Origin: Opitutus sp. GAS368
GTDB taxonomy: Bacteria; Verrucomicrobiota; Verrucomicrobiia; Opitutales; Opitutaceae
DNA length: 64,000 nt
NCBI RefSeq assembly: GCF_900104925.1
Contig: NZ_LT629735.1
Coordinates: forward strand, 1,582,291-1,646,290
Reading direction: 5' to 3'
Shown: in pieces, positions 22,459-24,189 of the stretch
Numbering within the stretch: position 1 is the stretch's first letter
Layout: each line of letters opens with the position of its first letter
Program-made: the position numbers and the translations under genes
Notes under the pieces: model-generated
Told to the model about the DNA's origin: nothing
What the model saw: the letters and a program-made list of their open reading frames with translations, nothing else
Database searches by the model: none

Positions 22459-24189
22459 ATGACTATCCGCCGGTCCACCCTGCTCTGTCTTCTGTTCCCT
22501 GTCCTCTGTTCCCTGCTCAACGCCCAGATCGACCGCATCAACGGCCGCGCCTTCGCCACGCGCTCGCCCGTGCTCGGCGCGCACGGCATGGTGTGCACCA
22601 GCCACCCGCTCGCCACGCAGGCCGGCCTCGACATCCTGAAGGCCGGCGGCTCCGCCATCGACGCCGCCATCGCGGCCAACGCCGCACTCGGCCTGATGGA
22701 ACCGGTGAGCAACGGCGTGGGCGGCGACCTCTTCGCCATCGTCTGGGACGCGAAGACCGGGAAGCTCTACGGCCTCAACGCCTCCGGCCGCTCCCCGCTC
22801 GGACTCAGCTACGAACAGATGAAGGCCGAGTTGGCGAAAACCGCCACGCCCAGCCACATCCCGCCCCGCGGTTTCCTGCCGATCTCCGTCCCCGGAGCGG
22901 TCGACGGCTGGTTCGCGCTCCACGGCAAATTCGGCCGGCTGCCGATGAAGGACATCCTCGCGCCGGCCATCCGTTACGCCACGGAGGGCTTCCCCGTCAC
23001 CCAATACATCGCCTACCTCTGGGGCATCGGCGTGCGCAATGCGAAGGCCGACCGGTTTCCCGGCGCGTTCCTCGACGTCTACGCGCCGGGCGGCCAGGCC
23101 CCGCGCGAGGGGGAGATTTTCAGGAACCCCGCGCTGGCCCATACGCTCGGCCTGATCGCCATCCAGGGCCGCGACGCCTTCTATAAGGGTGAGATCGCGG
23201 ACCAGATCGACGCCTTCATGCGCGCGAACGGCGGCTTTCTGCGCAAAGTCGATTTCGAGAAGAACGCGCCCACCTGGGTCGAGCCGGTCTCGGTCAATTA
23301 CCGCGGCTACGACGTCTATGAGCTGCCGCCCAACTCGCAGGGTATCGCCGCGCTCCAGATGCTGAACATCCTCGAGGGCTACGACCTGGCGAAAATGGGC
23401 TACAACTCGCCCGATGCCCTGCACGTGCTGATCGAGGCCAAGAAGCTCGCCTTCGAGGACCGCGCGAAATTCTACGCCGACCCCGGTTTCGCGAAAATCC
23501 CGCTGCCGGGCCTGCTCTCGAAGGAATACGCCGCCGGGCGCCGCAAGCTCATCAACCTGGCGCGCGCCGCCCGCACCTACGACGCCGGCAACCCCGCGCT
23601 CAAGGACGGTGACACGATCTACCTGTGCACGGCCGACGCCGAGGGCAACATGGTGTCGCTCATCCAGTCGAACTACCGCGGCATGGGCTCCGGCATCACG
23701 GTGCCCGGCCTCGGTTTCACGTTACAGGACCGCGGCGAGATGTTCACCTTCGAGCCCGGCCACGCCAACGTCTACGCGCCCGGCAAGCGCCCGTTCCAGA
23801 CCATCATCCCCGGTTTCGTCATGAAGGACGGCCAGCCGTGGGAGGCGTTCGGCGTCATGGGCGGCGCGATGCAGCCGCAGGGCCACGTCCAGGTGCTCGT
23901 CAACCAGATCGACTTCGGCATGAACGTCCAGGAAGCCGGCGACGCCGCGCGCTGGCAGCACGAGGGCTCGAGCGAGCCCACCGGCGAGAAGATGACCGAC
24001 GGCGGCACGGTGCAGGTCGAGAGCGGCATTCCCTACGCGAGCACGCGCGCCCTCGCCCAGCGCGGCCACGTGATCGTCGGCGGCATCGGCGCCTTCGGCG
24101 GCTACCAGGCCATCCGCTGGGACCCGGTGAACAAGGTTTACTGGGGCGCCAGCGAAAGCCGCAAGGACGGCCAGGCCGCGGGCTACTGA
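22459..24189 (+). CDS. ggt: Gamma-glutamyltransferase precursor
   Basis: Exported N-terminal-nucleophile hydrolase that removes or transfers gamma-glutamyl groups, as in glutathione breakdown. Signal peptide is TLLCLLFPVLCSLLNA. Core motifs: GGSAIDAAIAANAALGLMEP, NGVGGDLFAI, SVPGAVDGW. The self-cleavage/nucleophile threonine aligns at T386 (GDTIYLC), although the usual TTH triplet is TIY. Later MGGAMQPQGHVQVL is conserved. 576 aa, normal. The signal-peptide DNA is made of 7-bp repeats (see findings). Confidence 0.92.
   Translation: MTIRRSTLLCLLFPVLCSLLNAQIDRINGRAFATRSPVLGAHGMVCTSHPLATQAGLDILKAGGSAIDAAIAANAALGLMEPVSNGVGGDLFAIVWDAKTGKLYGLNASGRSPLGLSYEQMKAELAKTATPSHIPPRGFLPISVPGAVDGWFALHGKFGRLPMKDILAPAIRYATEGFPVTQYIAYLWGIGVRNAKADRFPGAFLDVYAPGGQAPREGEIFRNPALAHTLGLIAIQGRDAFYKGEIADQIDAFMRANGGFLRKVDFEKNAPTWVEPVSVNYRGYDVYELPPNSQGIAALQMLNILEGYDLAKMGYNSPDALHVLIEAKKLAFEDRAKFYADPGFAKIPLPGLLSKEYAAGRRKLINLARAARTYDAGNPALKDGDTIYLCTADAEGNMVSLIQSNYRGMGSGITVPGLGFTLQDRGEMFTFEPGHANVYAPGKRPFQTIIPGFVMKDGQPWEAFGVMGGAMQPQGHVQVLVNQIDFGMNVQEAGDAARWQHEGSSEPTGEKMTDGGTVQVESGIPYASTRALAQRGHVIVGGIGAFGGYQAIRWDPVNKVYWGASESRKDGQAAGY
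22481..22522 (+). repeat. Heptamer array inside the ggt signal sequence
   Basis: Six consecutive 7-mers, TGCTCTG TCTTCTG TTCCCTG, then TCCTCTG TTCCCTG CTCAACG, encode the hydrophobic core of the signal peptide. The unit is the same TCCTCYG heptamer found in intergenic arrays at 32.95, 45.3 and 47.1 kb. Confidence 0.65.

Follow-up and report, generated by a model that had tools for sequence, protein, structure and literature searches.

The window analysed here, a stretch of 64,000 nucleotides from Opitutus sp. GAS368, sits in a complete 4.15-Mb genome (G000). It contains ggt, the gene for a gamma-glutamyltransferase whose product matches the PF01019 profile with 498.6 bits against a cut-off of 27, and several tandem arrays of a heptamer with the degenerate consensus YTCYGTC, one of which lies at the 5' end of ggt. 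The sole Rfam match in the window at gathering thresholds was a tmRNA. The features of ggt and the intergenic arrays of the same heptamer are:

22459-24189, + strand: ggt, gamma-glutamyltransferase of 576 aa (open reading frame; PF01019, E = 3e-149)
22459-22524, + strand: predicted signal peptide MTIRRSTLLCLLFPVLCSLLNA, with cleavage before Q23 placed by eye
22481-22515, + strand: five YTCYGTC-type heptamers forming the hydrophobic core (TRF; matrix score 33.5, reached by 0 of 20,000 recodings)
22516-22522, + strand: CTCAACG, named as a sixth unit, off-consensus (sequence reading)
32954-33001, + strand: leader array that stops just short of the ATG of gene 33006-33623 (TRF and array scan)
45262-45352, + strand: array whose 3' end adjoins the stop of opposite-strand gene 45354-46895 (array scan)
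47136-47177, + strand: array 44 nt upstream of the start of gene 47222-48313 (array scan)

The product of ggt begins with MTIRRSTLLCLLFPVLCSLLNA followed, after the cut set by eye, by QIDRING. By eye this N-terminus is a predicted Sec signal peptide (MTIRRST-LLCLLFPVLCSLL-NA before the Q), with a charged n-region, a hydrophobic core and small residues ahead of the cleavage site; the residues coded by the array have a mean hydropathy of 2.84. The initial annotation had proposed that six 7-mers at 22481-22522 build this core from an intergenic repeat. All six are present letter for letter; five of them (TGCTCTG, TCTTCTG, TTCCCTG, TCCTCTG and TTCCCTG) loosely match YTCYGTC, whereas the sixth, CTCAACG, does not. 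TRF detected the array independently, with a period of 14 at 22485-22515 and a period of 7 at 22492-22515. The proposal that the core is built from the repeat was borne out, the same heptamer occupying intergenic gaps: the arrays named near 32.95, 45.28 and 47.14 kb were located at 32954-32995, 45262-45352 and 47136-47177. Codons 8-20 of ggt read CTG CTC TGT CTT CTG TTC CCT GTC CTC TGT TCC CTG CTC, in which both Cys codons are TGT (10% of the Cys codons of this genome) and both CTT and CCT occur, which genome-wide make up 4.5% of Leu and 3.8% of Pro codons.

Arrays were scored with a position matrix derived from 90 units of this genome's intergenic arrays, with the ggt units excluded. The ggt array scores 33.5 over 28 nt, while synonymous recodings of the same peptide, drawn with genome codon usage, have a mean of -1.9 (sd 7.4) and none of the 20,000 reaches 33.5. 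The match to the heptamer in ggt is at the nucleotide level, beyond the constraint of the peptide. A strict search for a 21-mer pattern with at most one mismatch gave 91 overlapping matches in the genome compared with 1 for the reversed control, and a loosened pattern, fitted to the ggt units, gave 231 compared with 63; by eye the ggt 21-mers have two or three mismatches to the strict pattern. The strict pattern (at most one mismatch) is present in 44 of 100 family genomes, several of which have as many matches to the reversed control. Since 7 and 3 share no common factor, all frames of an array yield the same stop-free cyclic heptapeptide, (L/F)(C/R)(L/P)(L/P)SSV, in support of the initial annotation's remark that the repeat passes through all codon phases and still gives hydrophobic residues.

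To place the arrays relative to genes we used 932 kb of the own genome containing 48 arrays. A 704-kb part (7 arrays, of which the window contains 4) was chosen without regard to arrays but includes the reader-chosen window, and a 228-kb part (41 arrays) consists of the surroundings of loosened-pattern matches. Gene starts came from our own codon-usage caller, later retrained; the score threshold for arrays was set by us, as were the windows of the placement classes, after a first look at the data. Eighteen arrays end at a same-strand start, with the 3' end -3 to +19 nt from the start codon, six end at an opposite-strand stop, one begins at a sense stop and seven occupy other intergenic space; the rest lie in genes, five in the first 45 nt, five elsewhere in sense and six antisense. 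Among the 32 non-coding arrays, the 18 at same-strand starts compare with a random mean of 1.69 (maximum 8; 0 of 2000 trials as high) and the six at opposite stops with a random mean of 1.75 (12 of 2000 trials as high). Not one of the 32 begins at an opposite-strand start, the mirror position, for which the random mean was 1.63, and only seven lie away from gene edges, where 25.4 were found on average at random. The 3' end of the pyrimidine strand is thus at a coding boundary, either a sense start or an opposite stop, in 24 of 32 cases. These data establish the identity of the repeat and the placement and orientation of its arrays. Genes led by an array include, as read from their N-termini, dnaX, lgt, rpe, a GspF/PilC-like gene and a YbdK-like gene. 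Read on the strand of the gene, the six antisense arrays in called genes (L084, L093, L096, L098 and L099) encode charged stretches, GGRMTEDGG for example.

A second heptamer family, YTCAGGT, is also found in the window:

36207-36238, + strand: YTCAGGT array 5 nt before the ATG at 36244 (array scan)
48853-48883, + strand: YTCAGGT array 3 nt before the ATG at 48887 (array scan)
35916-35946, - strand: YTCAGGT array whose 3' end adjoins the stop of gene 35019-35912 (+) (array scan)
44797-44827, - strand: YTCAGGT array with its 3' end some 10 nt from the stop of gene 43821-44786 (+) (array scan)

Of 10 YTCAGGT arrays in the 704-kb sample, 6 have a 3' end no more than 20 nt away from either a sense start or an opposite stop, a count that has no random control, and at 51001-51078 the family is present in 11 identical copies. 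Six distinct 11-nt tandem arrays lie within half a kilobase at 50282-50827, with no adjoining called gene. Leaders with a 7-nt period before an ATG were also seen with other units (CACTTGY, CTCCNNG, NNGCTTA and CCTTCCG), at L077 4137-4175, L079 15110-15140, L190 15490-15523 and L071 1667-1700.

Arrays used as coding sequence are not confined to ggt. Scanning 456 called genes of the own genome, we identified four signal-peptide arrays besides that of ggt, and each of the five starts 9-24 nt after the ATG. For the other four, named from their sequences, none of 20,000 recodings scored as high:

L066: LptE-like lipoprotein, signal-peptide array
L087: lipoprotein, signal-peptide array
L089: MuiA-like protein, signal-peptide array
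L090: amidohydrolase-like protein, signal-peptide array

Among the 10 sense arrays within genes, these five begin within 24 nt of the ATG and form predicted signal-peptide cores, two (both in L093) lie in hydrophobic segments resembling membrane helices and three (L065, L084 and L092) encode less hydrophobic stretches. In the five signal arrays, the fourth base of the unit is never C at the 13 positions where it changes the amino acid (T, G or A in 13/13), and C there would encode Pro or Arg; at silent positions it is C in 6 of 8 cases, and in the intergenic units in 51 of 90. Protein-level selection acts on the coding units, keeping T where Leu or Cys results, and by this fourth-base rule the sequence of the signal arrays is constrained by repeat and protein alike.

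We then turned to the orthologues of ggt. A match at E <= 1e-100 was present in 31 of 100 family genomes and in 8 of 21 genomes of the same genus, with 93% identity to the own copy in G107 and 90% in G111, both congeners. The closest ggt records that carry a name come from an Opitutus sp. MAG (93%) and a Lacunisphaera sp. MAG (90%), and the genus is probably Lacunisphaera. Start regions were scored in 64 rows including the own copy (L005-L030, L101-L103 and L112-L146), some of which duplicate one contig, as L009 and L146 do; the excluded rows were L104 (a fragment), L105-L107 (paralogue-like), L108-L111 (contigs or genes already included) and L031-L034 and L147-L186 (more distant or partial). 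Four rows score at least 20 (G112, 35.7; own, 33.5; G071, 29.2; G111, 27.2), G107 has a decayed array with a score of 8.0, and the other 59 rows, including congener G037, score -9.8 or lower. A clear or decayed array is found in 5 of 64 rows, every one of the window's own genus. Close orthologues do lack the repeat, though they possess signal peptides: L006 (88% identity) and L008 (84.5%) have ordinary-looking signals with the same AQ.DR junction, indicating that an old ggt signal was rewritten. The idea that repeat DNA had made a new export signal was not borne out; the orthologues show instead an older export signal of ggt that was rewritten by the repeat. Distant relatives (L032-L034, 42-45% identity) have an N-terminus without a signal-like stretch.

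The initial annotation had set heptamer-level conservation of the signal against conservation by codon, and G107 speaks for both. The same signal aligns there codon by codon and its substitutions break the heptamers, yet its score is matched by just 176 of 20,000 recodings. Four of the five congener sequences beat 99% of their recodings; in the fifth, G037, the heptamer match does not rise above what recoding of the peptide alone would give (6927 of 20,000), which for this one congener speaks against a repeat origin. In a tree of the mature ggt protein with 38 rows, G000, G107 and G111 form one clade, and G112, G071 and G037 group with four rows of other genera in another; constraining the six congeners as one group, defined after seeing the tree, was rejected (p-AU 0.00048). 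Presence and absence of the array need three changes on this tree, and because its bearers fall in two places, the repeat appears to have arisen or arrived at least twice. There may thus have been two or more origins of the ggt array, or transfer between congeners.

Comparable scores were obtained for other genes of the genus. With the own copy included, scores of at least 20 were found for the lptE signal in 6 of 21 congeners, for the muiA signal in 5 of 16 rows (one being a C-terminal fragment) and for the lgt leader in 3 of 19 (one with an uncertain start); most congeners score below 20, so that at each gene only a minority of them has the heptamer. At the equivalent site of the lgt leader, other heptamers were seen by eye, TCTGACC-type in G071 and CTTTCAC-type in G111. 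Palindromic REP-like elements appear to lie in frame within the signal peptides of the muiA orthologues L230, L231, L239 and L241 and of the lptE orthologues L211 and L216, also by eye, and signal peptides thus seem to accept other kinds of repeat too. In L208, L209, L211, L218, L220 and L224 a REP-like sequence (about TTCGCTGCGCTCAGA) ahead of lptE leads, by eye, directly into the start codon ATGAC, which gives the impression that the start comes from the repeat. In the own genome, where the heptamer crowds the start sites of other genes too, repeat DNA appears to have rewritten existing export tags several times and not to have created a new one. In other genera, we read 27 distinct arrays at 30 loci from five genera. 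Five cross signal-like N-termini (two in L267, plus L269, L290 and L294), the L293 array crosses an N-terminus without signal character, and about four lie within 16 nt before a start (L271, L281, L284 and a weak one in L267). The caller assigns 17 of the 27 to other intergenic space, a weaker placement than in the own genome, and since it was trained on the window's genome this placement is weak evidence either way.

The regions around gene starts were examined for their initiation context. An SD-like motif occurs at -20 to -5 in 10 of 263 genes and at -50 to -35 in 18 of 263, counts given here without a significance test; it precedes 0 of 18 array-led genes, being rare anyway. A guessed pattern for the 16S 3' end had no match. 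The region from -35 to +20 folds with a mean of -5.7 kcal/mol in array-led genes compared with -10.6 in 389 genes (P = 5e-4), and all five signal arrays fold more weakly than the mean of their recodings, folding at least as weak being seen in 0 to 9% of 400 recodings. One 566-codon frame in the genome contains six S1 domains. The Bacillus CspB consensus GTCTTTG/C (PMC7825780) resembles YTCYGTC, and cold-shock proteins (Csp) are discussed for TAACTGA repeats by MacGregor (PMC4679880). The cold-shock domain PF00313 had no match in the complete genome, while the control search was positive in 9 of 14 genomes, which rules out cold-shock proteins as readers of the heptamer here. A general 7-nt periodicity of leaders was likewise rejected: high lag-7 periodicity was seen in 9 of 373 leaders (shuffles gave 0.2, and lags 14 and 9 gave 8 and 6 leaders), in 10 of 332 gene tails and in 1 of 525 coding stretches, and being scarce in leaders and equally frequent in tails it is no general initiation signal. 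Scarce SD motifs, weak folding, the S1 frame and the missing cold-shock domain together favour an unstructured, pyrimidine-rich initiation region.

We consider it probable that this is a one-sided heptamer repeat at the translation starts of an SD-poor genome, kept or tolerated because it is unstructured, stop-free and codes for hydrophobic residues, a function that we infer from these properties. The ggt array is one copy of the dispersed one-sided YTCYGTC repeat, whose pyrimidine-strand 3' end tends to lie at gene edges, the pre-start class being the largest. Start arrays would persist as a weakly structured, pyrimidine-rich initiation region free of Shine-Dalgarno motifs, to which ribosomal protein S1 might bind. 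The array supplies the hydrophobic core in ggt and in at least four further genes with signal-like N-termini, selection afterwards retaining T where it gives Leu or Cys. Coding arrays may be tolerated because they are stop-free in all frames and give one cyclic heptapeptide, and signal peptides would be the coding site that most often accepts them. The effect on initiation, the involvement of S1 and the mode of spread are our inferences.

Other explanations account for part of these data. Functionless arrays produced by slippage or copying might survive only at sites under little coding constraint: the edges of intergenic gaps, signal peptides and certain membrane or linker segments. We regard this neutral reading as possible but doubtful. 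It fits the tolerance of signal cores for any hydrophobic sequence, the arrays in membrane-like and linker-like segments, the palindromic repeats seen by eye in signal peptides of lptE and muiA from congeners, the turnover of the lgt leader between congeners, the weaker placement in five other genera and gene tails as periodic as leaders. However, a neutral repeat predicts no orientation bias, and 18 arrays were seen at sense starts with none at opposite starts, while 7 of 32 lie off gene edges where 25 were expected. Directional copying or growth might instead lengthen arrays toward the 3' end of the pyrimidine strand and halt where coding constraint sets in; we hold this to be unlikely, although it would cover both the start-adjoining and the opposite-stop-adjoining arrays, with signal peptides as overruns of an ATG. 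The 3' ends at coding boundaries of either kind (24 of 32) are consistent with such growth, as are the 6 of 10 in the second heptamer family (no random control) and the one-sided rule that PMC4692102 reports for GGGAATC repeats, and the six opposite-stop arrays are better explained by directional spread halted at coding sequence than by a role in initiation. Against it, the 24 boundary arrays have no clear 5'-to-3' gradient of unit decay, and no enzyme or element was identified. Directional growth and the initiation-region explanation can hold jointly.

Contingency loci are phase-variable simple sequence repeats in which a non-triplet tandem repeat lies near the 5' end of a gene, and the ggt array is likewise such a repeat close to a gene 5' end. 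Gain or loss of a unit would shift the ggt frame by one base and turn the gene off, 7 not being a multiple of 3. A switch of this kind is nevertheless very improbable: unlike contingency loci, ggt has five non-identical units, so that slippage is expected to be rare, and the register is constant between five species, the spacing from the VLC-type stretch to the presumed cleavage site being equal in G000, G107, G111, G112 and G071 across both clades. That the Leu-rich ggt signal merely resembles the heptamer by chance can be practically dismissed. CTG and CTC are indeed the favoured Leu codons and the core is Leu-rich, but the recoding test (0 of 20,000), the heptamer signals of four more genes of the own genome and the low scores of the remaining 59 of 64 ggt rows (-9.8 or lower) refute it.

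Tandem heptanucleotides are known in bacterial genomes as the short tandemly repeated repetitive (STRR) sequences of Calothrix and other cyanobacteria, to which YTCYGTC arrays are likened by kind alone rather than by sequence or placement. Three heptanucleotides of Calothrix are mentioned in PMC4692102. MacGregor 2015 (PMC4679880) describes TAACTGA direct repeats in Beggiatoaceae, in Cyanobacteria and in some Bacteroidetes; their arrays are mostly short, point toward start codons and stop a few nt away, a minority pointing toward stop codons; SD motifs are rare behind them and intragenic copies lie mostly at protein ends. On this account YTCYGTC arrays share with them tandem 7-nt units, short length, one orientation, a start-proximal 3' end and the rarity of SD-like motifs (0 of 18 here, though 10 of 263 genes overall), whereas the unit differs, is degenerate and is stop-free in all frames, more than one heptamer family exists in this one genome and arrays form signal-peptide cores. 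The GGGAATC and GGGGA(C/T)T repeats of Xanthomonas and Nostoc (PMC4692102) have their G-rich strand as the non-coding strand upstream of open reading frames and as the coding strand downstream. Similarly, the C/T-rich strand of YTCYGTC arrays has its 3' end toward a gene edge (24 of 32), but in contrast to GGGAATC the unit lacks a G-run of three or more (its matrix has at most one pair of neighbouring G on either strand), so that no G-quadruplex of that type is expected. By resemblance, YTCYGTC arrays may be grouped with start-proximal heptamer repeats, without the TAACTGA unit. The available parts of PMC4679880 and PMC4692102 describe no repeat-built signal peptides for TAACTGA or GGGAATC repeats, and in the open-licence literature searched no title concerned signal peptides built from repeats or heptamers in Opitutaceae.

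Overall, these results add another case to the start-proximal heptamer repeats, called unexplained in the 2015 papers PMC4679880 and PMC4692102, with a different unit and a testable placement rule. Within one genome, several unrelated genes use a kind of repeat that is mostly non-coding to encode part of their protein, and selection on this repeat-derived coding sequence can be read base by base. More tentatively, and with considerable doubt, Opitutaceae might have a heptamer system, active and directional, by which initiation regions are written time and again, with repeat DNA as a recurrent source of signal cores. If so, an array placed behind any ATG would be a ready-made hydrophobic signal core, and the one-sided rule that Beggiatoaceae and Xanthomonas follow with other heptamers would suggest a single undescribed process at work in distant phyla.
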